Assembly (NCBI GenBank): GCA_946497955.1
Contig: CAMMMH010000006.1
Span: 1 to 57,527, forward strand
Direction of reading: 5' to 3'
Length of the DNA: 57,527 nucleotides
Source: an uncultured Mycoplasmatota bacterium
Lineage (GTDB): Bacteria > Bacillota_I > Bacilli_A > RF39 > UBA660
Part shown: positions 32,281 through 51,011 of the stretch, piece by piece
How the letters are laid out: each line of letters starts with the position of its first letter
Numbering within the stretch: the first letter of the stretch is position 1
Position numbers and translations under genes: made by a program
Notes under the pieces: generated by a model
What the model saw: only the letters and a program-made list of their open reading frames with translations
Database searches by the model: none
What the model was told of the DNA's origin: nothing

Positions 32281-32305
32281 TTAAAAACATCTCATTAGAG
32301 ATGTT
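32281..32305 (-). terminator. Terminator of the DUF362 operon
   Basis: Minus-strand stem AACATCTC / GAGATGTT with TAAT loop then TTT. It begins at the stop codon. Confidence 0.75.
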
Positions 32306-33191
32306 AGTTGTCAATTTCTATAAGTTCATACTCACGGTTACCTACACCAAGGTCATAAGCTGCTTCTACAGTATGTATACCATGAAGTGATTCAATTCTA
32401 CTAATTAGTTTATCTTTACCAGGATCAGTAGAGTTATATACAAAGTCAAGGCAAGCTTGATCTATTGCTACTGGATCAGTTGATGCAAGTATACCAATAT
32501 CTTGCATACAAGGAGCTGAGGCATTACCATCACAGTCACAATCTATTGAAATATTTTTCATGACATTAATGTAAACAGCATTACCTTTAAAGTAATCTAC
32601 TACAGAACTAGCAGCATCTGCCATTGCCTCTAAGAATCGATCTTGTTCTGGTAAGTTACCAAATAGTTTTGTTTGGTCATTTGTAACACCTGCTGTATGA
32701 ATTAGTGTTTTACCAGCTGATGAAGCACAACCAATAGATAATTGTTTTAAAGCTCCGCCATATCCTCCCATAGCATGTCCTTTAAAATGAGATAGAACAA
32801 GTAATGAGTCATACTTTGCTAAGTCTTTTCCTACATAGTTTTTCTTTAAGACTTTACCATTAGGAATATCTAGTTCCATATCAGGTCCTTCAGCATCTAA
32901 TAAATCAAATGGAAAATATTTATCCCATTCATGTTCTTTAATTAATTCACGATGTTTTTCTGTAGAGTTTCTAGCTCCTTCATAAGCAGTGTTACATTCA
33001 ACAACAGTACCATGAACATAGTTAATTACATCTTTAACAAACTCTGGTCTTAGATAGTTCTTATTACCTTTCTCTCCAGAATGCATTTTAACGGCTACAT
33101 TTCCTTCTAATTTTTTTCCAACAACCCCATAAGCCTTAATAATGTTTTCAGGAGTTATCTCCTTAATAAAATATACTTTTGATTTTTCCAT
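32304..33191 (-). CDS. DUF362 domain protein
   Basis: 295 aa. 'AVKMHSGEKGNKNYLRPEFV', 'VVECNTAYEGARNSTEKHRE', 'SHFKGHAMGGYGGALKQLSI' and 'IDCDCDGNASAPCMQDIGIL' are diagnostic for DUF362, proteins often fused to ferredoxin domains; no ferredoxin part is present here. A metal or iron-sulfur role is suspected for the family but the reaction is unknown. Last gene of an operon with the cupin and carboxymuconolactone-decarboxylase genes. Confidence 0.88.
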   Translation of the reverse strand: MEKSKVYFIKEITPENIIKAYGVVGKKLEGNVAVKMHSGEKGNKNYLRPEFVKDVINYVHGTVVECNTAYEGARNSTEKHRELIKEHEWDKYFPFDLLDAEGPDMELDIPNGKVLKKNYVGKDLAKYDSLLVLSHFKGHAMGGYGGALKQLSIGCASSAGKTLIHTAGVTNDQTKLFGNLPEQDRFLEAMADAASSVVDYFKGNAVYINVMKNISIDCDCDGNASAPCMQDIGILASTDPVAIDQACLDFVYNSTDPGKDKLISRIESLHGIHTVEAAYDLGVGNREYELIEIDN

Positions 33192-33236: not shown

Positions 33237-33653
33237 TTATAATTTATTATACTTTTCATCAGTTACAGGTTCACACCATTCATTTGAAGTTTCTTCGCCT
33301 GGTACTTCAATTGCTAAGTGGCTAAACCAAGAATCTTTCTTTGCTCCATGCCAATGTTTTACATTAGCAGGAATAGTAATAACCATACCAGGTTTTAGAC
33401 TAACTGCCTCTTTTCCTTCTTCTTGGTACCATCCTTCTCCATCAACACAGATAAGAATTTGTCCACCACCATTTTTAGCATGATGAATGTGCCAATTATT
33501 ACGACAAGCTGGTTCAAATGTAACGTTAGCGATGAATAGACTTGTCTTATTAGGATCAGTTAAAGGATTTAAATAACTTTTACCTATAAAGTATTTGGCA
33601 TAAGCCGTATTTTCTTCTCCTAAACCAAAGTCTCCTCCATGTTTCTCATTCAT
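33237..33653 (-). CDS. Cupin-domain protein
   Basis: 138 aa with one cupin barrel. Metal ligands appear in 'NNWHIHHAKNGGGQILICVD' (H, H, Q) and 'PANVKHWHGA' (H). Small cupins of this kind accompany carboxymuconolactone-decarboxylase proteins in stress-induced operons and may bind or transform reactive carbonyl compounds; the substrate is unknown. The ATG overlaps the upstream stop by 1 nt (TAATG). Confidence 0.9.
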   Translation of the reverse strand: MNEKHGGDFGLGEENTAYAKYFIGKSYLNPLTDPNKTSLFIANVTFEPACRNNWHIHHAKNGGGQILICVDGEGWYQEEGKEAVSLKPGMVITIPANVKHWHGAKKDSWFSHLAIEVPGEETSNEWCEPVTDEKYNKL

Positions 33654-34315
33654 TATTTATCACTTCCTTTAATAGTTATATTCTTAATTAAATTAATTGT
33701 ATTTAAACTTATAGGAAAGCCTAAATAAGGAACCAAATTCTTTACTACTTCTATCAATAACTCTTTACTATTGCCTAAAGCTAGATTAGCATTGATGTGA
33801 GATGAAAGCTGTGGGGCAACATCCTCGTAAGATGCTAGAGTTGCAAAAGTAACTAGTTCTCTTTCTTGATAATTTAAATAATCTCTTGTATAAAAGTCGC
33901 CAAAACAATAACTTGCCAAATAATCCCAAATAAATTTAAAATCTTCACTTTCTCCATCTCTTGATTTATCAATATTTTCTTTACCAAAAAGATTGTACTG
34001 TGTTTCTAACCCTTTAGAATATCTATCTTCATTTGTTGTAGTAGAAGCTGAATTTATTTTTCCTAAAACTTCTTCTGCTGTTACAAGAAATGGATAAACC
34101 TTACCATACCCTAGATATGGAACAGTCTGATATACTGCTTCCTTCAATGATTCTTTATCTACATGAGTTACCGCCTCACTTAACTTATCTTTAAATATCT
34201 CTTTACTATTAGTAGATATTAAAGCTGGTAATATAGTAAGATATTTACTTCTTTCATCAAGGTTGCTTTTAATATCATTATTTATAAAATTATTTACAAT
34301 ATTCTCTATTTCCAT
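33653..34315 (-). CDS. Carboxymuconolactone decarboxylase family protein (AhpD-like)
   Basis: 220 aa with two repeats of the all-helical CMD fold: 'LKEAVYQTVPYLGYGKVYPF' and 'LIEVVKNLVPYLGFPISLNT', and 'FGDFYTRDYLNYQERELVTF'. The AhpD-type CxxC is absent (only one Cys at CFGD), so an alkylhydroperoxidase reaction is unlikely. GGAGGAG lies before the ATG. First gene of the operon behind a MerR-type promoter. Confidence 0.88.
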   Translation of the reverse strand: MEIENIVNNFINNDIKSNLDERSKYLTILPALISTNSKEIFKDKLSEAVTHVDKESLKEAVYQTVPYLGYGKVYPFLVTAEEVLGKINSASTTTNEDRYSKGLETQYNLFGKENIDKSRDGESEDFKFIWDYLASYCFGDFYTRDYLNYQERELVTFATLASYEDVAPQLSSHINANLALGNSKELLIEVVKNLVPYLGFPISLNTINLIKNITIKGSDK

Positions 34316-34343
34316 TACTCTCCTCCTTATTTCTTACAAGATA

Positions 34344-34374
34344 ATTCTATCACTTAGACTTAACTCCAAGTCAA
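34344..34374 (-). promoter_or_regulatory. MerR-type promoter of the CMD-cupin-DUF362 operon
   Basis: Minus strand TTGACT, a 19-bp spacer, TAGAAT. The spacer contains an imperfect dyad (ACTTGGAGTTAAGTCTAAGT). An over-long 19-bp spacer with internal dyad is the hallmark of promoters activated by MerR-family regulators. No merR gene is in the window. Confidence 0.75.
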
Positions 34375-34381
34375 GAGAAAA

Positions 34382-34693
34382 TTACTTAGTTTCCTCTTCT
34401 ATCCACTTTAAATAATCATTACTTGGACTAGTTAAAGGAAAAACGGCAAATTCAAATACTTCATAACTATGAATTTCTTTTATTACTTTATAAACTTCAT
34501 TAATTAAAGACTCTTTTGTCTTCATAAAGACTAAATACCCTTTATCGCTTTCAAGCTCTCCATTATAATTCCAAATACTATCACTAGTTAATACTTGTAA
34601 ACTTGCTACTAACTTTTCTTTTAAAAGTTTTTCTTCTGTTAAATTAACTTCTTCCTTATTATTAAAAGCAACTTCTATCATTACGTATTTCAT
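34382..34693 (-). CDS. cutA: CutA-like divalent-cation tolerance protein
   Basis: 103 aa. Ferredoxin-like fold of the trimeric CutA family: 'LLKEKLVASLQVLTSDSIWN', 'YLVFMKTKESLINEVYKVIK' and 'EIHSYEVFEFAVFPL'. Linked to metal tolerance in E. coli, but the true role is debated. AAGGTGAC lies 5 nt before the ATG. Confidence 0.88.
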   Translation of the reverse strand: MKYVMIEVAFNNKEEVNLTEEKLLKEKLVASLQVLTSDSIWNYNGELESDKGYLVFMKTKESLINEVYKVIKEIHSYEVFEFAVFPLTSPSNDYLKWIEEETK

Positions 34694-37842: not shown

Positions 37843-39072
37843 CTACTTCTCCTCTAATTTCATTTTAATAAATTTTTCTATAAATAACAAGTTATTTTCT
37901 TGATAACCACACTTTTTATTTTCAAATAGTAAACTCTTAACTTCTTGTAACTCTTTTGACTTAACAAGTTCTAATTTATGAAGTCTATTATTACCAACAC
38001 TAACACTAGGTTTAGTATTAAAGTAACTTTTCCCATCATAAAGAAATAATTTAATATTACTATATTTATTATTTAGTTTATCTGCTATTAATAATCCTTC
38101 AGGATCATAATCTCCATTATAATAAAGAGTTGTATCACTAGTAATATTTTCTAATAATTTATAGAAAGCAAGATTAGGAATACCAGATGTTATTATAATA
38201 GAAATATCTAAATCCTTATTCTTAAAATAATTTAAAATAGAAGGATTTTCAAAGATAAATATCTTATTACTCTTGCCAGTTATATTATTTAATTTAAAAA
38301 TATTATCAATATTTAAGTTCATAACATCAAAAGGCATTTCTTTATCATAAACTAGGTTATATGTAATAACATAATTACTAAGCGAATCTATATAGACATT
38401 TATCTTTTCTAATAGTTTAGTCTTATCTAAATTAGTATTAGGTATATCACATTCTAAAATATTACTTAATATTCTATAGAAAAGATTACTACTCTTAGCA
38501 TTATAATCTAAATAATGAGGATTAGAGGTTATTGAAGCATAAATTGGTAAATAAGTTATCTTATCTGGAATATTACTTAATAGTTTATCTATCATAAGTA
38601 ATTCTTCTTTTAAAGCTTTTTTATTTTGTTTATATTTACTTTTTATATTACGCATAGTACTAAAGTTTTTATTTATATTTCTTTCAAAAAAATCTTTAAG
38701 TTTCTCACTCGTAAGTTCTAAAAGTAAATCTTCTATAAATGAAACAAACTCTTCATGAAATTTTCTCTTCTTTAAGGTATTAGTAAGATAAGAAAAATCA
38801 TCATAGGTATTATAGAAGTAATCAGTAAACTCAAAGTCTTGAAATTTGCTTTTATCAAGTACTTTATTAAATTCACTTATCTTTATTTTATAAGTCTTAC
38901 CTTCTTCAAATTTTCTAGCAAAGAAATCTGTTAGACTAACTGCTTCTTCATAAGTTATATTATCAAGAGTAATAATCCCTGTTACCCTACCATAACTTTG
39001 ATACTTCTCTTTAGCTTTTACCATAAACCTTTCAAAACCTTTATTATTCTTAAAATAATCTAAATAATCCAT
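37843..39072 (-). CDS. jetD: Wadjet nuclease subunit JetD (type II, TOPRIM)
   Basis: 409 aa, matching the TIGR02679/DUF2399 group. The C-terminal TOPRIM half has the acidic residue in IFIFENPSI (~274), 'IIITSGIPNLAFYKLL' and GDYDPEGLLIADKL (~322, DxD). In characterised Wadjet systems JetD cleaves the plasmid DNA that JetABC has loop-extruded. The start ATG immediately follows the jetC stop (TAG ATG). Complete, with catalytic residues present. Confidence 0.9.
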   Translation of the reverse strand: MDYLDYFKNNKGFERFMVKAKEKYQSYGRVTGIITLDNITYEEAVSLTDFFARKFEEGKTYKIKISEFNKVLDKSKFQDFEFTDYFYNTYDDFSYLTNTLKKRKFHEEFVSFIEDLLLELTSEKLKDFFERNINKNFSTMRNIKSKYKQNKKALKEELLMIDKLLSNIPDKITYLPIYASITSNPHYLDYNAKSSNLFYRILSNILECDIPNTNLDKTKLLEKINVYIDSLSNYVITYNLVYDKEMPFDVMNLNIDNIFKLNNITGKSNKIFIFENPSILNYFKNKDLDISIIITSGIPNLAFYKLLENITSDTTLYYNGDYDPEGLLIADKLNNKYSNIKLFLYDGKSYFNTKPSVSVGNNRLHKLELVKSKELQEVKSLLFENKKCGYQENNLLFIEKFIKMKLEEK

Positions 39073-42000
39073 CTATTCCACACTTTCTCTAACTAATCCA
39101 TTCCAACGATATCTTTTAATACTTACAGTATCTGCTGCCTGAGGCTTAATAAGTTCACATATTGAAATATCTTTTATTTCTTTATAATCACACCATAATG
39201 CTTGACTTGTTAAGATATAATCTAAATCAAAACTTGCAAGGATTGCAAACATTTCTTCAATATTAACTTCATCTACACCTGCAAAGGCTTCATCTAAAGC
39301 GATTAATCTAGGAGATGAAGGTGCTGCACTATCTAATTTAGCATAGATACTTGCAAATAATGGAACATACATAGTCTTAGCTTTCTCTCCTCCACTAAAG
39401 ACAGAAAATATCTTATCAGTTAATTCTCGTTTTTGATTACCATCTTTTTTATAAAAGAGTTTAAAAGTAAACCAATTACGATAATCTAAAATATTAAAAA
39501 TCATTTGGAAGTACGTTATATTATTAGTAAGCATAGACTCTTCTTCTCTTTTTATCTTAGATCTAAAATGCTTAATTAATCTATTAGTATCTTCAGGCTT
39601 TATAAAATTACTTGGCATCATAAATATCTCTACTAAATCTTTAGTATCCATTTCTTCTAGTGTCTCTCCACTTTTAGGTTTCCAATCCAAGTAAAAAGAT
39701 AAATTACTATTTTGTTGTTTTATTTCCATAATATTATTAATCTTTTTAACCCAATCTCTTGCTTCTATTATTTTCTCTTTAATCTTAGTCCCAATAGTTC
39801 TAAGTAAAATATCTTCAAACAAATGTCTATCTTGTTCATTAAGATAAATCTTATCTGCCTCATAACTTTCTAATAAAGCATTAGAAAGTTCATAGATATT
39901 TAACTTCTTACCTTGATAACTAGTTAAAACATCTTGTCTTTTCGCATCGTTATATATGTTAATAACTCTTGTTCTATCAGATACTTTATCACTATAATAA
40001 TTAATTAAATTATCTCTTTCATTAAATAAAACTACATCTTGAATATTATACTCTAATAATTCCTGACGATATTCATTAAAAGAACGGTAATAGTTCATAG
40101 TAACATCTTTCAAATCTTTAGTTTTAGCATCATTATTTCTTAAAAAGTTCTTAATAGTTTTAAAGTCTACTTCTAAATCTTTAACAACATAACCTAAATC
40201 TAGTTCTTCTTTTAAAATATTAGATAGTATTTCTAAAAAAATCTCTTCTTCTTTTTTCTGTTCTTCTAAAGACTTAAGTTGTTCTTCTTCTCCTTTAAAG
40301 CTCTGTTCTAAAACACCTAATCTCTTTGATAAATTAGCACTCTTAAAAGGATAATCTTCAATAGTCTTTACAATTTTCTCTATTTTTTTACTAAGTTCAA
40401 GATACTCTTTAGTATTAAGAATCTTTAAAATAGTATTAAGTTCTATTTCTCGTTTTTTCTTATCATTAACTAAACTAGATATAGTAGCATACACTTCATC
40501 ATGATTAGTAGTTAAATCATCTAATCTTTCTTTATTAGTCATTAATAATTCCTTTTTCTGATTTAATTTATCATAAAGAGCATTTAACTCTTTAGTAGTA
40601 TCTAAAATATCTCTAATTACAACACTAGCTTTCTCATAAGTTACAAGGTTAAGAGGAATATTACTTCGATATTGCTCTAATTCTTTAATAACTTCTTCAA
40701 TTTGTTGTTGATACTTTCTAATTTCCTCTTCAAGTTCCTTTTCTTTATTATTAATAAAATCAAGTTCTAAATCTGTTTCTTTAATCTTAGCTGTAATTTC
40801 TTCTAATATTCTATTACTAGGAAATAATTTACTTTCATTATTTAAAGTATTTATAGAAGTATCTAATGTATCTAATTCAAGTTCTTTTTTTCTAATAACT
40901 TCTTTAATAGCATCAATCTTCTCTTCCTCTTCTTTTATAAGTAATTGATGTTCTTCTTTTCTTTTTAAAACTCCTATATATTTACTATTATAATCACCTT
41001 TAATATTACCTTTAATAAAGTCAAAGTTATAATTATTTTCATTAATACTAATAACATCACTATCACTAGTACTAATAGATTCTAATATTGAAGTAATAAA
41101 CTCATTACTAAAAACTTCATTAGGATATGCTTTTAAATATTTAGTCAAGTTATCTTTCTTTTTACTACTTTTCTTAAAGTAAGAAATATTCATATTTTCT
41201 ATCTTTCTTAAGTCTTCATCTCTAAATATCTTAGTATTTAAAATCCCTGATGAATATAGCACTTCTTCTAATTTATTTTTAGTATCATCATCTATTCCTT
41301 CTTTAAATTCTACTACTTGATAAAGTGCAGCATAAGGAATATTTTCTTTATCTAAATAATCTATTGTCTTTCTAGTTAAATCATCTTCTTCTAGTTTTAT
41401 CTCTTCCATTTCTAATAATTCTTTTAATAATAACTCTTCTTTACTTAACTTATCTTTCTCAGTTAAAAGTTCAGTTTTCTTAAAAGATACTTCTTCTAGT
41501 AATTTACTATACTTAATCTTATATATTTCTTCATACTTCTCTTTAGATTTTAAATAACCTTCACTACTATATTCATCTAAATAACTAGCAATTTCCTTCA
41601 TATCATCACTTAATAAAATAAGAAATTTATTATTAGTTCTAATATTATTTAATGAAATAAAGAATAGTTCAAGTTCATTATCTAGTTCTTGATAAAAACC
41701 ATCTCTTATCTTTTCTTTTTCTAAATAATCTGTTTTTAATTTTTCATATTCATTAGACTTAATATTTTGACTCTCTAAAAGATTTCCTTTTCTTATAAGT
41801 AGTTCTTTAGTCTTTTCTATTTCCTCTTTCTTAAAATTTATCTTTTCAATAATATAACTAACTTGAGTTTTCTCTTTTATAAAAGGAATTAAATCTTTTA
41901 ATTCATCAAAACTAATCTCATCTCCTAAATCACTTAAGTTAGTGATTAAATTAGTTATTTCTTTATCAAGGTTAGTAATATCATCTTCATTATCGTTTAT

Positions 42001-43110
42001 TAAAGAAGTTATCTCACTCATCTTCTGTTTCAAATTATCAATTACTTCTTCTTCTTTAACAAGTCTTTCTTTAAGTATCTCCAACTCATTATCAAGTTCT
42101 ACTTTTCTTTTACTTTTTTCTTCTAAATCAGTATTGTTTAAATGTTCTTTCTCCTCTTTAGCAGTATTAAATTCATCTAATAGTACTACCTCTTCTTCTT
42201 TTAGTCTAGTAATCTCTTCTTCTAAACTAGTAATAGCATTAGTTTTCTCAGTAATTTTAACCTTTATATTTTCAAGAGCTTGGTACTCTTTATAATAATT
42301 AGTCGCTTTAGCAAGTAATACTGCTTCGTTATAATTTTTAAAGACTTTAGTAAAGTTAGAAAGAATATCAATGTTATTTTTTAACTCATTAATCTTTTCT
42401 TTAGTAGCATTTAAATTTTCAATAGTATCAGATAAAGGTCTTAAAGTCTCATCTGATAAAGGTGGTAAAACTTCATTTAATACTTCCATTAATTTAGTAG
42501 GCTTATACTCTTTAGATAATTTTGGACTCCTAATTTGTAAGATAATATTGATAAATTCATCAAAAGTTTCTATATTTCTAAATTTAAATAGATTATCATT
42601 AACTAACTTTTTATATTCTTTAGCAGTTTCTACTAAATTATTAGAAATACCTAAAGCACTTCTTAACTCTAATTTTGTTAAAGGCGTCTTAGTAAAACCA
42701 TCTTTTGTCTTATATAAGAAGAAATCTTTTCCTACTCTTCTACCATCTTTTAAGATAAAACCAAAGAAGTCAGTAGGCTTACCCCTTCTCGCTCTAAGTC
42801 CCATACCAATAGTAATATATCTATCTTCTAAACCATTATAAAACTCCATATATAAATAACCAGTAGAATCATCTTTTTCATTATTTTCTCCAAGTAAATA
42901 ATATTCTATATGTTTGTCAGTAGAACCAAAAGTATCTAATCTTTTAGGAGATTTATTACCATCTAATATTAAGGGAATAAATGATTGCATAGTAACAGAC
43001 TTTCCTGATCCATTTTGTCCTCTAAGTAAAAGTTTACCATCATAAAAATTAAATACTTCATCATCATATAACCAAAAGTTTATAAGTCCCATTCTTGTAG
43101 GTTTAAACAT
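39073..43110 (-). CDS. jetC: Wadjet SMC-like ATPase JetC (MukB-like)
   Basis: 1345 aa, the TIGR02680 group. N-terminal 'PTRMGLINFWLYDDEVFNF' and Walker A RGQNGSGKS (residues 30-38); a coiled coil from about 230 to 1150; C-terminal ABC signature FSGGEKAK (~1238) and Walker B LIALDEAFAGVD (~1273). JetC is the motor that extrudes DNA loops to sense small circular DNA. Start at ATG 43110 with GGAGGTGAAGAAG upstream; the track's TTG lies before that site. Overlaps jetB by 8 nt. Confidence 0.93.
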   Translation of the reverse strand: MFKPTRMGLINFWLYDDEVFNFYDGKLLLRGQNGSGKSVTMQSFIPLILDGNKSPKRLDTFGSTDKHIEYYLLGENNEKDDSTGYLYMEFYNGLEDRYITIGMGLRARRGKPTDFFGFILKDGRRVGKDFFLYKTKDGFTKTPLTKLELRSALGISNNLVETAKEYKKLVNDNLFKFRNIETFDEFINIILQIRSPKLSKEYKPTKLMEVLNEVLPPLSDETLRPLSDTIENLNATKEKINELKNNIDILSNFTKVFKNYNEAVLLAKATNYYKEYQALENIKVKITEKTNAITSLEEEITRLKEEEVVLLDEFNTAKEEKEHLNNTDLEEKSKRKVELDNELEILKERLVKEEEVIDNLKQKMSEITSLINDNEDDITNLDKEITNLITNLSDLGDEISFDELKDLIPFIKEKTQVSYIIEKINFKKEEIEKTKELLIRKGNLLESQNIKSNEYEKLKTDYLEKEKIRDGFYQELDNELELFFISLNNIRTNNKFLILLSDDMKEIASYLDEYSSEGYLKSKEKYEEIYKIKYSKLLEEVSFKKTELLTEKDKLSKEELLLKELLEMEEIKLEEDDLTRKTIDYLDKENIPYAALYQVVEFKEGIDDDTKNKLEEVLYSSGILNTKIFRDEDLRKIENMNISYFKKSSKKKDNLTKYLKAYPNEVFSNEFITSILESISTSDSDVISINENNYNFDFIKGNIKGDYNSKYIGVLKRKEEHQLLIKEEEEKIDAIKEVIRKKELELDTLDTSINTLNNESKLFPSNRILEEITAKIKETDLELDFINNKEKELEEEIRKYQQQIEEVIKELEQYRSNIPLNLVTYEKASVVIRDILDTTKELNALYDKLNQKKELLMTNKERLDDLTTNHDEVYATISSLVNDKKKREIELNTILKILNTKEYLELSKKIEKIVKTIEDYPFKSANLSKRLGVLEQSFKGEEEQLKSLEEQKKEEEIFLEILSNILKEELDLGYVVKDLEVDFKTIKNFLRNNDAKTKDLKDVTMNYYRSFNEYRQELLEYNIQDVVLFNERDNLINYYSDKVSDRTRVINIYNDAKRQDVLTSYQGKKLNIYELSNALLESYEADKIYLNEQDRHLFEDILLRTIGTKIKEKIIEARDWVKKINNIMEIKQQNSNLSFYLDWKPKSGETLEEMDTKDLVEIFMMPSNFIKPEDTNRLIKHFRSKIKREEESMLTNNITYFQMIFNILDYRNWFTFKLFYKKDGNQKRELTDKIFSVFSGGEKAKTMYVPLFASIYAKLDSAAPSSPRLIALDEAFAGVDEVNIEEMFAILASFDLDYILTSQALWCDYKEIKDISICELIKPQAADTVSIKRYRWNGLVRESVE

Positions 43111-44278
43111 CTTCTTCACCTCCAAATAAATCCATCTGTTTTGTATTATCTTTTATAAGTTTAGCATTAAACCTAGCGATAGTTGGTAATACTAAATAAG
43201 TATTATCCTCTTCTTTTAAGAAAGAATACTCTATCATATAATTTACTACTTCATCAAAGAATTTCTGTAAAGATAAATTAATATACTGTTTACTTAAGTA
43301 TTCTTTATTATTAGTCTTAATGTCTTTAATAATCATCTCTAAACTTTCTTTTTTTATTCGTCCTATCTCTTTATCATCAAGAGATATTTCTTTATTTTTA
43401 ATCATTTCATAAAGTTTAGTATTTATCATTAAAACTATATCTGTAATTTTCTTATTATTAGGAAAATTATCTTTAGAATTACTTGTTTCATATTCATAAA
43501 GAAAAGCCATATTCTTTGTAACTTCAATTTCGAAGTTCAAATTAGAAAACTCATTTTCTAAATAACCACGCATCTTCTTAATATAATCAATTTCTGCTTC
43601 TGTTAAGTTATAAGAAAAAACAGCAGGAGTAAATAAAAGATTACGATAAACTTTATATCTTCTAACATCACCTTTTTCTAAAGTTTGATATTTCCATTCA
43701 TCATTTAAGAAATCATTAGTATCTTCTATTTCAAAAATATCGTTTGTAAATAATCGCATTACATAGTTAGCAAGACCTGTTACTTCATATAAAGCTTCAG
43801 CATTTTGATCATCTTTAAAGCTTATCTTTTCAGCATCTTTAACCTTTATTACTGATATTTCTGTTAAGAAATCTATTACTCTAACTAAACTTTGTCTATC
43901 ACTTCTTAAATTCCAATCTGGTATTGTCTCAAGATTTAAGGTAACCGCGGTATTTTTAACATAATCTATTAGTGATGATAAAACAAAGACTTCACCTCTA
44001 GTTTTATCTTCTAAAAATAATAGAATTATACACAAAATGACATAGTCTTGTTTTGAATTAAAGTTATCTATTCCTAGATTATCAACTCTACTACTAGGAA
44101 TCTTTTCAAGTTTAACAAATCTATCATGAATAATTAATTTACTACCAAGAGTCTTAGTAACAAAGTCTTTAATAATATTTTGTTTTCTTTTAACGTCATA
44201 GTATAAGTCAGGATTATCTTCTTTTAAAATCCAAAAGTTAGTTAAAAGTTCTCTTATTTCATTTTCAATTGATTCCAT
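43103..44278 (-). CDS. jetB: Wadjet subunit JetB (TIGR02678-type)
   Basis: 391 aa. 'RELLTNFWILKEDNPDLYYD' at the N-terminus, 'SRVDNLGIDNFNSKQDYVIL', 'IPDWNLRSDRQSLVRVIDFL' and 'YEVTGLANYVMRLF' match the TIGR02678/DUF2398 family. JetB is the MukE-like kite protein that bridges the SMC and kleisin. Start at ATG 44278 (AAGGGGG at ~5-6 nt); the ORF track uses a TTG. Overlaps jetA by 14 nt. Confidence 0.88.
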   Translation of the reverse strand: MESIENEIRELLTNFWILKEDNPDLYYDVKRKQNIIKDFVTKTLGSKLIIHDRFVKLEKIPSSRVDNLGIDNFNSKQDYVILCIILLFLEDKTRGEVFVLSSLIDYVKNTAVTLNLETIPDWNLRSDRQSLVRVIDFLTEISVIKVKDAEKISFKDDQNAEALYEVTGLANYVMRLFTNDIFEIEDTNDFLNDEWKYQTLEKGDVRRYKVYRNLLFTPAVFSYNLTEAEIDYIKKMRGYLENEFSNLNFEIEVTKNMAFLYEYETSNSKDNFPNNKKITDIVLMINTKLYEMIKNKEISLDDKEIGRIKKESLEMIIKDIKTNNKEYLSKQYINLSLQKFFDEVVNYMIEYSFLKEEDNTYLVLPTIARFNAKLIKDNTKQMDLFGGEEDV

Positions 44279-45749
44279 CATAACCCCCTTCAAAAATAAT
44301 ACTTAAACTAGGTAAAGTAAATATTCCATCATCACTAATAATTCTACAAGTAGTATTACTATCATTAAAATTAACTTTATAGTTAAGTCCAAATAAAGGT
44401 TCTTTAAAATAATTAGTACTATTTCCTGCTTTACTTATTAGATTTAAAAGATATCCTCTTTCTTCTTTAGTTAATCTAACTTCATCTTTTAACTCTACTA
44501 CTTTAGTTTGAACGAACTTCTTTAACATTTCTTTTTTTCTAGCTTCTTCCTTCTCATATAACTCTAATATTTCTTTTTTCTTACTAGTTTTATCTACTAT
44601 AGTACTATGACGTTTTTCTGCTCTAATTTTTTTATCATTAGGTAATACTGATATTATTGTTGGCTTTACTTCATAAGAATTAACTAAAGAGTCAGTATCT
44701 TTTTTACTAATACCTTTAAAGTGTTTAACTCTATAAATTCCAAAGACAGCATTAGATAAATCTCTTACTTCAGTTAGATTAGTTTTTTTATCAAAAAGTT
44801 TACAAATATACTTATACTCTTCTTTACGTTTTATCATATTACCATGAAGTTCTATGAGACTACTAGCACATTTAGTAATTCTACTGATAAGATTACTAGT
44901 AACTTCTAAAAGTCTATCACCTTCACTCTTTTCTTTAGTATTAACAAACCATTTATAAATACTTCTCCATTTACCCAAATTAACTTGATTAAATTTCTGA
45001 TAATTAAAGTCTAAAGCTATTTTAGGAATACCTCTTTCTGCTTCTTCTAATCTTTTAATAAGATTATCTTGAAAGTTATTATCCATACTCTTTAAAATTT
45101 CTCTTATAACTTCAGCTTGATTTAAGTACCCTGTTATAAAATCTTTTAAGTACTGAATCATTTTATTTTTATATTCTAGAAAGACTGTACTTTGTAAAAG
45201 TTCTTCAGTTTTTGACTCTTGAAACTTCTTTAAAAAGTCTTGATAGTTTCTATTAATATCACTAAATTCATTAGTAATTCTCTCCCAAGTATCAAGTAAT
45301 TCTTCGTTAGATAGAGAATCTAATTTTTTTATCTTTTTTAATAAGTCTCTTAATACTTCAAATCTTTTAGGAGATAAAGATGCAACCTTTACTTCCATTT
45401 CTTCAAGTTCAATAGTCATACGTTCTATAGCGATAGCATAATCTGTTAATTGATATCTATATTTTTTATATTTAAAGTCGGCAAGCGAGTTAATATTATT
45501 AACATCTTGAACAGTAGTTAAACTTAAATTATCTACTAAAAACTCTAAATCTCGTTCTAAATCTTCCATAGTATAGTTATCTATTTTATCCTTTAATTCA
45601 TCATAGATATCTTCTTTAAAAAGCCAATTCTCTGCTTCTTCATATTTATGATAGAAAAAACGCATAATAGGTCTATAACGATAAGTATTTTCTTGTGATA
45701 AATATTTAGTCTCCGTAATAGCTTTTTGTAGTACTTCAAAATTATCCAT
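44265..45749 (-). CDS. jetA: Wadjet subunit JetA (TIGR02677-type kleisin)
   Basis: 494 aa. 'QENTYRYRPIMRFFYHKYEE' and 'YRYQLTDYAIAIERMTIELE' are typical of the TIGR02677/DUF2397 family, the MukF-like kleisin of type II Wadjet. The C-terminus 'VRLTKEERGYLLNLISKAGN' is also characteristic. ATG 45749 follows GGAG by 5 nt; the track's GTG lies in the site. First gene of jetABCD plus the SEC-C gene, all overlapping or nearly so. Confidence 0.88.
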   Translation of the reverse strand: MDNFEVLQKAITETKYLSQENTYRYRPIMRFFYHKYEEAENWLFKEDIYDELKDKIDNYTMEDLERDLEFLVDNLSLTTVQDVNNINSLADFKYKKYRYQLTDYAIAIERMTIELEEMEVKVASLSPKRFEVLRDLLKKIKKLDSLSNEELLDTWERITNEFSDINRNYQDFLKKFQESKTEELLQSTVFLEYKNKMIQYLKDFITGYLNQAEVIREILKSMDNNFQDNLIKRLEEAERGIPKIALDFNYQKFNQVNLGKWRSIYKWFVNTKEKSEGDRLLEVTSNLISRITKCASSLIELHGNMIKRKEEYKYICKLFDKKTNLTEVRDLSNAVFGIYRVKHFKGISKKDTDSLVNSYEVKPTIISVLPNDKKIRAEKRHSTIVDKTSKKKEILELYEKEEARKKEMLKKFVQTKVVELKDEVRLTKEERGYLLNLISKAGNSTNYFKEPLFGLNYKVNFNDSNTTCRIISDDGIFTLPSLSIIFEGGYDGIN

Positions 45750-45770
45750 AAACACTCCTTTATGGCTATT

Positions 45771-46199: not shown

Positions 46200-48029
46200 T
46201 TATAATTCAAACTCTTTCATAAAAAAATCTACTAATCTATTTGTTCTTTCCTTTATGTCTTCGATATGCCAAGCATCTTTACTAACTACATCGTCATTCA
46301 ATTTTAATCCATTTTTATAACCAATATAATTACCATCTTTATTAACTCTATTCTTTTTCTTTTCGAAAGACAAATTACTTAAGTTTTGGTTATATCCAGT
46401 TATAGTTAAATTTCCTAAAATATGTACATAATTATTTAAATATTCAATTGCTAAATTTTTATCACCATTTGCAATCATATTAACCCACTCTACTGGAATA
46501 TTTTCTCCTTCAGGAAAAATATGCTCTATAGTCCAAATATATTTATTACTACTATCTCTACTCCACAAATTAGTATATATTTCATTTGTTTTAAATTTAT
46601 CTTCATAATAACATAGTAAAAATCTTGTAGCATCTGGATTATCTAAATATATTGATCCTTTTAATTTTGCTTCAAATATTTCATCAGATGATGAATTATC
46701 TTTTAAGTTATTGATAATCAAATCATATATTTCAGTACCTTGTTTATCCTTAATTAGTGCTACTAAATCCATAAATATCTTTGTTAGATTTCTTGTATTT
46801 GGATAATCTGTAATATTCCTTCTAACAAAAAACTTTGTTAAATAGTTAATAATATTTGCAATAATTTCATTATTTAAATTTAATTCTTCTTTTTTTGACA
46901 TCAAATATAAAAGTAAAATATATGCAGGTGCTCCTTGAATTTTATCTAAATTAAATAATGGCTGTGCTAATTCTTCAATAACATAATCTTCACTTGCGTT
47001 GTTAATTAGAATTGAATAATTTCTAGCTTCTTTTTCAACTCTATTTAAAAATTTTTCATAATCTGTCTTAATTAATTTTTCATAGATATCTAGTATTGTA
47101 CTTTTTGTAGCTAGATAACCTAATGCATATTTTACTTTTCCTTCTGCTTTATATGGTGCGTTTAATTCATCTCTATAAGCATTATAAAATTGTCTAAAGA
47201 ATCTTTCTTGTACGCTATAATCATCGCTTAAATAAGAAAGTATCTTTTTCCATTTAGAATAAGCATCATCTGATTTACCATCAGCATCTGATACACTAAT
47301 TAATAAATTTTTGATTAAATCAATAGCAGATAAAGGAACTCCTCTATTATTCAAGGATTCAAATAGCATATACGCATCTTTATGTGTTTCTACCTGAATA
47401 GATACTAAAATAGCAGAATTAAATTTGTTTACTAACTCAAATAAAATATCTATTTCATTTAAATTTGAATCTTCTTTTTGAATTTCTTCTATATATTTAT
47501 CAATTAAATTAGAAAAGTAATAATAGGCTCTATATATTCTTCTATTACCAGCATTATTCTTCTTTTCATAGTCCAAAAGTAAATCATTTTCACATAATAA
47601 ACTAAAATAGTCATCTCTATTATTATTTTGAACTTGTGGCTTTAATCTTGAAATGTTTTTACCATTTCTTTTAACAACTAATTCTCTTTTAATATTATTT
47701 AAATCTGTAAATCCATCTTCATCTAATTGACTTTTCTTTTTATTCAATTTATTGTATAAAGCTATTAATAGAATAGAAATAGATGTTAATCTTTGTTGTC
47801 CATCAATAACTTCTAATATAGCATCACTCCAAGCACTGACACTATCATCTACACAAATAATAGAACCTAAAAAATATCCTTTATCATTTTCAATTACATC
47901 ATTAAATAATAATCCCCATTCTTTTTGTCCCCATGTATATTCTCTTTGATATTTTGGTATGTTATATAGAATACTTTTTTCATTAGAAAATATTTGAGCT
48001 ATATTATTTGGCTCTGTATATTTAATCAT
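46200..48029 (-). CDS. DUF262/DUF1524 protein, GmrSD-like modification-dependent restriction enzyme
   Basis: 609 aa. N-terminal DUF262: 'NIPKYQREYTWGQKEWGLLF', 'FLGSIICVDD' and IDGQQRLTSIS, the nucleotide-binding GmrS-like half. C-terminal DUF1524: IWTIEHIFPEGENIP and 'VHILGNLTITGYNQNLSNLS', the His-Me/HNH nuclease half. In GmrSD and relatives a fusion like this cuts DNA with modified bases, using NTP hydrolysis. ATG 48029 has AGGAG 10 nt upstream; the track's GTG is too near it. Complete and in the defence island. Confidence 0.88.
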   Translation of the reverse strand: MIKYTEPNNIAQIFSNEKSILYNIPKYQREYTWGQKEWGLLFNDVIENDKGYFLGSIICVDDSVSAWSDAILEVIDGQQRLTSISILLIALYNKLNKKKSQLDEDGFTDLNNIKRELVVKRNGKNISRLKPQVQNNNRDDYFSLLCENDLLLDYEKKNNAGNRRIYRAYYYFSNLIDKYIEEIQKEDSNLNEIDILFELVNKFNSAILVSIQVETHKDAYMLFESLNNRGVPLSAIDLIKNLLISVSDADGKSDDAYSKWKKILSYLSDDYSVQERFFRQFYNAYRDELNAPYKAEGKVKYALGYLATKSTILDIYEKLIKTDYEKFLNRVEKEARNYSILINNASEDYVIEELAQPLFNLDKIQGAPAYILLLYLMSKKEELNLNNEIIANIINYLTKFFVRRNITDYPNTRNLTKIFMDLVALIKDKQGTEIYDLIINNLKDNSSSDEIFEAKLKGSIYLDNPDATRFLLCYYEDKFKTNEIYTNLWSRDSSNKYIWTIEHIFPEGENIPVEWVNMIANGDKNLAIEYLNNYVHILGNLTITGYNQNLSNLSFEKKKNRVNKDGNYIGYKNGLKLNDDVVSKDAWHIEDIKERTNRLVDFFMKEFEL

Positions 48030-48069
48030 TACACTCACACTCCTAAAGCTATTTTAGCATATATTTATA

Positions 48070-48194: not shown

Positions 48195-51011
48195 TTATTC
48201 CTCACTCTTTTTGTTTTCAAGATTATATTTAGTTTCTTTGATTATTTTATCTTTATCTTTTTTATTTTTTTCATCTTGATATAGTATTTTAAATCTCACA
48301 ATTTCCTTATTAACAAATTCTTTAACTTTTTTATCTTTTGGTTTTAATTTTTTAAAAAAAGCGTATTTATCATGAAAAGAATTTGCAATACCATATTCTC
48401 CCTTAACAACTCCAGTATTAAATACTAGACATTCAATCTTGTTTAATAATTCATCATTAGAGGCAATCTTAGATATTATATATTCATATATTTCCCAACA
48501 AGATATTGATACGTCATATAATCTACATAAATCAATTACTTTTACGTAATTATCATAATTGTCATTTTCTTTTAAATACTTAAGTATATCGCTACATAAT
48601 TCATTGTTATATTCGCCAAGTAAATAATATATATAGTTAGATATTTTATAATAATTATTTTCAGTCAATAATTCTATACACAATTTTAAATTATTATATC
48701 TTTCTTCTTTATAATTATTACAAGTTGTTAGATTAACATATCTAAAAAAATTATATAAATTACTATTTGGATTATCTGTTATTTTTTCTTTAAGCAATAG
48801 CCTTAAATCTTCTGGATATTTTTCAAACAAATCATTTAAGAAAAACTCATCTAACCTATTAAATTCACTATACCTAAAATTTTCTAATAATATACAAACA
48901 TCAGCATAGTTATATTCTTCTATAATCATTTTCTCAGTATTAGGATTATATAATACTTCTCCAATAATTCCTTTAGTAATACTATTATACTTTTTTATTT
49001 TATTTAGTAAATAATTTTTATATTCTTTATTATTTACTAAATCAACATTATTAGAAATAAGCTTTAATATCTTAATTTCTAAATTCTCATTTTTATTATT
49101 TTCAACAAATTCTATTAAATTATTTATAATATTCAAATCTATATTACCTGTTTGTAGCATAGCTTGAATAATTTTATCAGCTTTTATGTCATTATCAATT
49201 ATATATTCATAATTTTTATCTTGTCTAATTACCCCAAGTAAGATAAATTCATTCCATTTAGTCTTTATTATTAATTTTCCATAATTTTCTAGTGTTCCAA
49301 TGCCAATTAAAAATCTTCCTGCATTAAAAAAATTCGAATTACTAATTTTTTCATTATCCAATATATCCAATATAGCTATAATCTCTTTAACATTACTCTT
49401 TTTAAAATTTTTGGTATATTCATTTAAATAATTAGTTCTAAATTCTTCATTTTCAGAATCATCAGCACATGGTATTTCATTAATAAAAAAATTGAATAAC
49501 ATTGCATATAAATTCTGAATTTTATCATTTTTTAGTTTTTTATAAAATTTGCTATCTTTTAATTTTGTATTTTTCCAAGCACATACAGATTTATATAGTT
49601 CGTTTTTACTATACACATCAATTTCATCATAATTATTATTGAAAAAATCATATATTGGATTATAGTCAAATATGTTTGTGTTTCTCTCCAACTCACAATT
49701 TATGTTAATTAAAGCATTTAAAGCTTCCTTCGAATGTTGATTAAAAAATATATCTAATATCACTTCTATTGCCTTATATATTTTATTTTTATAATTTTCA
49801 CTAGGGCTTACTTTATTATTTACAAAAGATATCTTATCCATGCCGACTTCTTCACAATAATTATAATTTATATTACAAAAATATTCAGCCAACTTTATTC
49901 TTACATATACATCTAAATCTTTTTCAAAAATTAATAAATAAGCAATTTCGTGAATATTATAATCAGCATAGCCTCTGTTAGAATCAGCTTTATCAGAAAC
50001 TATTAGATTCTCTATAAATTTATCAAACTTTTCTAACATATTATTATTAGTTGATATTTTATATAAAGTAGAAATTATTCTTTTAAAATCACTAAGCCAT
50101 AAATATTTATAGCTTTGTAAAAATTCTAACATTTTACTAAATTTATATTCATATGTATCATAATTCAAGAATTTAGCTGTTTCAATAGGTAATTCACTAA
50201 ATTTTTTTACTATTGAATAAATTATACCTGAATCATAAATTTCTTTGTACTTTTCTTCGTATTCATTAATTAAGGGAATAACTTCTATCATTTTATTAAT
50301 TATTTCTTCCAGCTCATTTAAAGATTTAACATTCTGCAACTTTTTACCGAAATCATCTCCTAATAATATCGCTATATTTTCTGCCCCCTTTTTAATGCTA
50401 GATACACGTTTATTAATAAACTCTAGGCTTGCCATTATCTTCAAAGTTTCTTTTCTTACATCTTCAAAAGTAGACTTAATTCTATTATATTCTTTGCTAT
50501 CCTTTGATTGTAATTCATCTACATCCTTATAAATTATATTATGCCCAAATTCATTCATGGCATGAGCCAACAATGTTGTTAATTGTATTTCACATAATAA
50601 ACCTTTAAACTTATTAAAATCATTTTTTAACGAAATTGTTATGTTAATTCCATCATATTCCATAATATCTTTTGATGGTCTATATGATTCAACATTAAAT
50701 TCATCGTAGATAATATTGTTAAATTTTTTTAATTCATCTTCATCATAAAAAATAATTCTTACGCCACTAAGGTCGTTTAGTTTTTTTATATTTTTGCAAA
50801 TGCCATTTATAATTTTCTCTGTTAACTTGTTTTCCAACGAATCATAAGATTTAACTCGACTATTTAAGGACTGATATTTTATACCATTTTCAATAAGAAT
50901 ATTTTTTACCTTATTCTCAATATAAGATGTAAATTCAACATAGATTAACTGAGATGATAAATATTCTTTTAACATTTGTTCTTTTACTTGTTTAAGTTTT
51001 TCAGATGTCAT
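48195..51011 (-). CDS. Long RelA/SpoT-domain protein with helical repeat-like C-terminus
   Basis: 938 aa. Residues ~45-165 resemble a (p)ppGpp-synthetase-like nucleotidyltransferase: SRVKSYDSLENKL (R52, K54, S58), 'LNDLSGVRIIFYDEDEL', 'EYDGINITISL' and 'CEIQLTTLLAHAMNEFGHNI' (E141, Q143, H157). At the usual Y-x-S-x-H motif it has Y-D-G-I-N, so Ser and His are replaced. About 750 residues follow, helical, Asn/Lys/Leu-rich and repeat-like (HEAT/ARM-like guess), with no other domain recognised. Its place between a GmrSD-like gene and a restriction-modification pair suggests defence, perhaps a nucleotide-modifying toxin with its own sensor. AAGGAGG precedes the ATG and a strong promoter lies upstream. 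Confidence 0.75.
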   Translation of the reverse strand: MTSEKLKQVKEQMLKEYLSSQLIYVEFTSYIENKVKNILIENGIKYQSLNSRVKSYDSLENKLTEKIINGICKNIKKLNDLSGVRIIFYDEDELKKFNNIIYDEFNVESYRPSKDIMEYDGINITISLKNDFNKFKGLLCEIQLTTLLAHAMNEFGHNIIYKDVDELQSKDSKEYNRIKSTFEDVRKETLKIMASLEFINKRVSSIKKGAENIAILLGDDFGKKLQNVKSLNELEEIINKMIEVIPLINEYEEKYKEIYDSGIIYSIVKKFSELPIETAKFLNYDTYEYKFSKMLEFLQSYKYLWLSDFKRIISTLYKISTNNNMLEKFDKFIENLIVSDKADSNRGYADYNIHEIAYLLIFEKDLDVYVRIKLAEYFCNINYNYCEEVGMDKISFVNNKVSPSENYKNKIYKAIEVILDIFFNQHSKEALNALININCELERNTNIFDYNPIYDFFNNNYDEIDVYSKNELYKSVCAWKNTKLKDSKFYKKLKNDKIQNLYAMLFNFFINEIPCADDSENEEFRTNYLNEYTKNFKKSNVKEIIAILDILDNEKISNSNFFNAGRFLIGIGTLENYGKLIIKTKWNEFILLGVIRQDKNYEYIIDNDIKADKIIQAMLQTGNIDLNIINNLIEFVENNKNENLEIKILKLISNNVDLVNNKEYKNYLLNKIKKYNSITKGIIGEVLYNPNTEKMIIEEYNYADVCILLENFRYSEFNRLDEFFLNDLFEKYPEDLRLLLKEKITDNPNSNLYNFFRYVNLTTCNNYKEERYNNLKLCIELLTENNYYKISNYIYYLLGEYNNELCSDILKYLKENDNYDNYVKVIDLCRLYDVSISCWEIYEYIISKIASNDELLNKIECLVFNTGVVKGEYGIANSFHDKYAFFKKLKPKDKKVKEFVNKEIVRFKILYQDEKNKKDKDKIIKETKYNLENKKSEE

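Follow-up and report, generated by a model that had tools for sequence, protein, structure and literature searches.

A candidate NmlR/AdhR-like MerR regulon that takes in a CMD-cupin-DUF362 operon in an uncultured Mycoplasmatota bacterium

Introduction

Does the string at 34344-34374, ahead of three poorly understood genes of an uncultured Mycoplasmatota bacterium, act as a switch-type promoter, and if so, which protein operates it and what signal does it obey? Promoters controlled by MerR-family regulators have a spacer of 19-20 bp and a dyad centred 7-8 bp past the -35 box, and the bound regulator brings the two boxes back into line by distorting the DNA (PMC5045206, PMC9909328). A first-pass annotation of the window, by which we mean the whole stretch of 57,527 nucleotides analysed here (contig CAMMMH010000006.1 of assembly GCA_946497955.1), had read TTGACT-N19-TAGAAT with a spacer dyad as a promoter of this class. 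It had placed the three genes behind it under common stress control by a regulator of the NmlR/AdhR type, and had placed the regulator itself outside the neighbourhood.

Results

The promoter and its operon

The features concerned are as follows, from upstream to downstream on the minus strand.

34382-34693, minus strand: cutA, ending 7 bp upstream of the promoter
34344-34374, minus strand: predicted MerR-type promoter, with -35 TTGACT (34374-34369), 19-bp spacer (34368-34350) and -10 TAGAAT (34349-34344), from sequence and pattern counts
34353-34370, no strand: imperfect dyad of 18 bp, CTTGGAGTTAAGTCTAAG, to which an NmlR/AdhR-like MerR protein is proposed to bind, with the same dyad at the regulator's promoter and across the genus
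34320-34328, minus strand: ribosome-binding site for CMD, AAGGAGGAG, from sequence
33653-34315, minus strand: CMD, tandem-type protein of the carboxymuconolactone decarboxylase family, 220 aa (PF02627, E 2.2e-10)
33237-33653, minus strand: cupin, 138 aa (PF07883; PDB matches 2f4p, 4bif and 4uxa)
32304-33191, minus strand: DUF362 protein, 295 aa (PF04015, E 3e-50), with a predicted LarA-like fold

On the minus strand the full promoter string reads TTGACT-TGGAGTTAAGTCTAAGTGA-TAGAAT. The halves of the dyad, CTTGGAGTT and AAGTCTAAG, pair at seven of nine positions; the dyad begins within the -35 hexamer and its centre falls 7 bp past TTGACT, so that both this position and the 19-bp spacer lie within the ranges known for MerR promoters. 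The ribosome-binding site and the start codon of CMD at 34315 follow at normal spacing, 59 bp separating the site from the gene. The cupin is related to the Mn-type or (R)-mandelonitrile-lyase-like cupins, with a score below the cut-off for NF049940.

Further along the window, and on the same strand, a complete Wadjet-type JetA2-JetB2-JetC2-JetD2 plasmid-defence operon (37843-45755) lies two genes upstream of metK, and a 612-aa protein (46200-48038) matches the Orf5/HEC-06/SspE defence models (both by padloc). The latter is followed by an open reading frame (48195-51011) with, as judged by eye, a RelA/SpoT-like look, which suggests a possible defence island.

The hexamers by themselves are weak evidence for a promoter. 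TTGACT-N17..20-TAGAAT has a single match in the whole window against a chance expectation of 0.2, and at least one match arose in 18 of 100 shuffles; since chance produces the hexamers in about one shuffle in five, a promoter claim requires evidence from outside this locus. The same 18% is one argument for reading the site as an ordinary housekeeping promoter with a fortuitous dyad, or as part of a cutA terminator, the operon then being expressed constitutively or by read-through from cutA. Another is that only 7 bp separate the end of cutA from the promoter and that a search revealed no terminator between them. The terminator version was rejected on the absence of a T-run after the dyad. What speaks against the remainder is that, as set out below, one gene set carries the 31-bp site at several loci that are not homologous, that the site is conserved in relatives where cutA is truncated, decayed or missing (L133, L140 and L143, in which the promoter is intact), and that the spacer is 19 bp everywhere with no better-scoring alternative of 16-18 bp, none being present near the window site either. 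We accordingly regard this explanation as extremely improbable.

Recurrence of the site within the genome and genus

Searching with the 31-bp pattern, allowing up to three mismatches and using the reversed pattern as control, revealed exactly three full sites in the 1.72-Mb genome. These are the window site, the promoter of a merR gene on contig C4, and a TTGACT-N19-TAGAAT site on contig C28 ahead of larC, which has genes for an MFS protein, an aldo-keto reductase, an alpha/beta-hydrolase and a cyclophilin-like protein after it. Three further genome hits were set aside: C4:52440 is intragenic, C8:20949 adjoins a transposase (IS605/TnpB-like) gene, and C43:9379 was dropped with C8:20949 on the strength of its near-identical palindrome. 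The palindromes at these last two positions have the form CTTGTCGTTA[CT]CTCCAAG (L013 1500-1520 and L024 1500-1520), and the one beside the IS605/TnpB-like gene is probably a transposon-end hairpin.

Of the 35 genomes of the genus (Candidatus Onthousia) that were scanned, 28 contain the site, with 52 copies in all, and the reversed pattern had no match in any of the 35 or in the genome of the window. Recurrence of so long a pattern means that the site is more than a product of chance. CMD orthologues were gathered from proteins rather than from sites to avoid circularity, and all 17 full-length ones have the site upstream of their operon, the 19-bp version being the best-scoring promoter-like site in each. 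At 13 of these 17 loci it stands 515-546 bp ahead of CMD, an interval that in most cases holds a complete or shortened flavodoxin gene. The other four loci, those of the window genome, G010, G025 and G027, have no flavodoxin gene, and their distance is 59 bp. Individual members of the gene set also possess site copies of their own, namely DUF362 in G022 and G024, cupin in G003, aldo-keto reductase in G027, hydrolase in G013, G022, G032 and G034, and the gene for the cyclophilin-like protein in G002 and G009, the last two by sequence likeness only.

The promoter string and spacer dyad of the first-pass annotation are thus borne out by their recurrence in this genome and its congeners, and the lack of conservation upstream of orthologous operons that it named as a refutation is contradicted by the 17 of 17 just described. 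The three genes that it grouped together belong to a wider candidate regulon, which also takes in flavodoxin, aldo-keto reductase, alpha/beta-hydrolase, cyclophilin-like and larC genes. Together these comparisons support the view that 34344-34374 is a genuine switch-type (MerR-class) promoter of the CMD-cupin-DUF362 operon.

Sites outside the genus

The scan was widened to 193 genomes of 148 genera in the wider family. Of 16 extra-genus sites examined in detail, 15 precede merR, DUF362, CMD/cupin, flavodoxin or aldo-keto reductase genes; six weaker matches with three mismatches look like chance. One case is a 5.7-kb contig from another genus of the family (L172), where merR, CMD, larC, cupin, flavodoxin and DUF362 are codirectional behind TTGACT-N19-TATAAT. 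That genus has a further merR-like gene (L240; G100:C91:178-208), which matches at 86% over 52 aa, runs off the end of its contig and is likewise preceded by a site with a 19-bp spacer. Elsewhere a lone DUF362 gene stands behind TTGACT-TAAAGTGAACTTTAAGGAC-TATAAT in Erysipelatoclostridium An173, and an aldo-keto reductase gene behind TTGACT-TGGAGTGCGCTCCAAATGC-TAAAGT in Beduini. Because the sites recur at the same gene set, which is not expected of random promoters, gene set and promoter travel together.

At more distant CMD loci a first dyad scan returned only AT-rich chance palindromes, and a consensus scan located true sites in L163, L172 and L184; at CMD loci of 34-40% identity (Methanobrevibacter, Lachnospiraceae and others) the site is mostly absent. 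The MerR genes of L159, L161 and L184 lack Cys52 and were set aside as a different type.

The candidate regulator

A family search of the assembly (1.72 Mb, 81 contigs, 92% complete) found two MerR proteins only. One, of 121 aa (G000:C4:11331-11693), has NmlR (NF041849) as by far its best NCBIfam family, with 139.9 bits and E 3.7e-41; as this is short of the 175-bit equivalog cut-off, it is NmlR-like and not classed as NmlR proper. Its sole cysteine is Cys52, a residue shared by all 26 orthologues and family members examined and the only cysteine in nearly all of them. Its gene is preceded by TTGACT-TAGACTAGACTCTAAGTGA-TAATAT, in the same arrangement and with the same 19-bp spacer as the window site. 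The other, on contig C33, has 386 aa and a large C-terminal effector domain in a TipA/BmrR-like layout.

Congeneric genomes contain 21 merR orthologues of the C4 type, every one with the site upstream, and the seven genomes that are free of sites are also without such an orthologue. It was not found in G003, G012, G013 and G020 (at least 92% complete) despite their sites, and since these are draft metagenome-assembled genomes, the gene may have fallen into a gap, or another regulator may have taken its place. Sites other than merR's own occur in 16 of the 21 genomes with merR and in 7 of the 14 without it, a co-occurrence that is not significant (Fisher one-sided p = 0.11).

These gaps lend some weight to the C33 protein as regulator of the window site: the assembly encodes no third MerR protein, and a MerR of the long type is present in G012 and G013, two of the site-bearing relatives in which no NmlR-like gene was found. 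Nevertheless, the dyad fronts the NmlR-like gene in 21 of 21 genomes, the C33 gene has no site in its vicinity, the distant one-operon arrangement of L172 includes an NmlR-like gene, and many site-bearing genomes have no match to the long type. The C33 protein is on these grounds a very unlikely regulator, and the C4 protein is, from sequence comparison, very probably the cognate one. The check proposed in the first-pass annotation, a search for MerR genes with the same dyad in their own promoter, finds the C4 gene, and the statement there that the regulator is not nearby agrees with the position of C4 merR on a different contig. As for the NmlR/AdhR-type class, Cys52 and the best-scoring family uphold it, short of membership in the NmlR equivalog itself.

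Mechanism and inducer

We propose that the C4 MerR protein binds the dyad, distorts the spacer on an electrophile signal and so activates the CMD-cupin-DUF362 operon, a reading to which we give a probability of roughly 0.88 on the comparative sequence evidence. According to the model, a dimer of the protein would occupy the 18-bp dyad inside the over-long 19-bp spacer. In the uninduced state the sigma factor would meet -35 and -10 boxes that are out of phase, and the promoter would be weak. On the action of a reactive electrophile, in all likelihood an aldehyde or some other carbonyl compound, on Cys52, the protein would kink and untwist the spacer so that transcription can start. It would in addition control the merR gene itself and the operon of larC, aldo-keto reductase and hydrolase. 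Distortion of this kind is established for MerR proteins, and by analogy with them we infer binding and distortion at the window site. The assignment of an aldehyde or electrophile as inducer, through Cys52, follows a parallel with Bacillus subtilis AdhR, which requires Cys52, has the CMD gene yraC among its targets and responds to formaldehyde and methylglyoxal (PMC4776306, PMC11577753).

It is nonetheless conceivable that the regulator type is right and the signal is something other than an aldehyde, either an oxidant, with quinones and hypochlorous acid among the candidates, or a metal, for instance nickel. NmlR-clade proteins sense several oxidants as well as carbonyls (PMC4776306), and flavodoxin and CMD appear in oxidant responses too (PMC7464077); nickel is suggested by the LarA-like DUF362 protein together with larC, which belongs to the regulon in all four larC-bearing genomes of the genus. 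Against this, the nearest characterised relatives and the lone Cys52 favour carbonyl electrophiles, and aldo-keto reductases are typical carbonyl-reducing enzymes. We consider a different signal a serious alternative, though on balance the less probable one, and retain carbonyl electrophiles as the preferred inducers.

The DUF362 protein and larC

DUF362 and LarA share Pfam clan CL0471 (PMC11770544). An AlphaFold model of the window protein (pLDDT 77, pTM 0.84) has as its top six Foldseek matches in the PDB LarA or LarA-like nickel-pincer enzymes, the best with E 4.9e-4 and TM 0.44. Residues H139, K149 and H165 are invariant, and their spacing of 10 and 16 residues equals that of His174, Lys184 and His200 of LarA1, which have roles at the NPN site (PMC11770544). 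Sequence matches are fainter. A weak match to Lar_N covers residues 119-170, over the cofactor region, and scores 12.3 bits in the window protein and 17.3 in a relative, below the Pfam cut-off of 23.3. When a LarA (L256) is compared with DUF362, the best ungapped block of 27 residues falls on the H/K/H residues with a score of 34 against 28 +/- 4.4 for shuffles, which is not significant by sequence alone, and hhalign of DUF362 with a single LarA finds the correct block locally, again without significance.

Of the 35 genomes of the genus, four carry larC, each time directly behind a MerR-type promoter, a link that L172 repeats. On C28 the LarC (L060:2828-3580) is an orphan comprising the N-terminal half only (PF01969 positions 1-234 of 375). 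LarE was found in none of the 35 congeneric genomes, and larC is absent from several genomes with DUF362 in the regulon, for example G004, G022, G024 and G027. The lack of LarE, the half-length LarC and the DUF362 genomes without larC all count against a working nickel-pincer pathway.

To place a LarA-clan enzyme within an NmlR-type regulon is thus speculative. It is unlikely that the regulon DUF362 proteins are LarA-clan nickel-pincer-like enzymes made under electrophile stress and loaded with metal by half-length LarC in the absence of LarE; were it so, aldehyde detoxification would include a redox or isomerase step that depends on nickel and is induced by stress.

Discussion

From a single promoter-like string the analysis arrives at a defined candidate regulon, made up of genes that look suited to detoxification, and a candidate regulator in an uncultured gut lineage. 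Under this reading NmlR/AdhR control would reach genes for DUF362, cupin, flavodoxin and LarC; our literature search found a published MerR link for none of them. That DUF362 has come under this promoter repeatedly and independently offers a physiological context for an uncharacterised family, and the predicted LarA-like fold combined with the regulon context turns this into a concrete enzyme hypothesis.

The likeness of DUF362 to the LarA lactate racemase superfamily lies in the shared clan, the leading structural matches and the spacing of the cofactor-site residues; it differs in the shorter length of the window protein, in a Lar_N score below cut-off and in the missing LarE of the genus. 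With the metal-responsive promoters of CueR, ZntR and MerR the window site has in common the spacer class and the position of the internal dyad. The sequence of the dyad and the targets differ, however, and the C4 protein is without the metal-loop cysteines, Cys52 being its only one.

NmlR of Haemophilus and Neisseria (adhC-estD) belongs to the same clade and has a conserved cysteine (Cys54 in NmlR), and structures of HI_0186 (HiNmlR) are among the best PDB matches of the C4 protein; neither adhC nor estD is among the genes found behind the sites. The B. subtilis regulator AdhR (YraB; adhA-yraA, yraC) likewise is a MerR protein with an essential Cys52 and a CMD-gene target (PMC4776306, PMC11577753). 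No yraA or adhA was seen behind the sites, and in place of the AdhR regulon the putative targets here are tandem-type CMD, cupin, DUF362, flavodoxin, aldo-keto reductase, alpha/beta-hydrolase, cyclophilin-like and larC genes.
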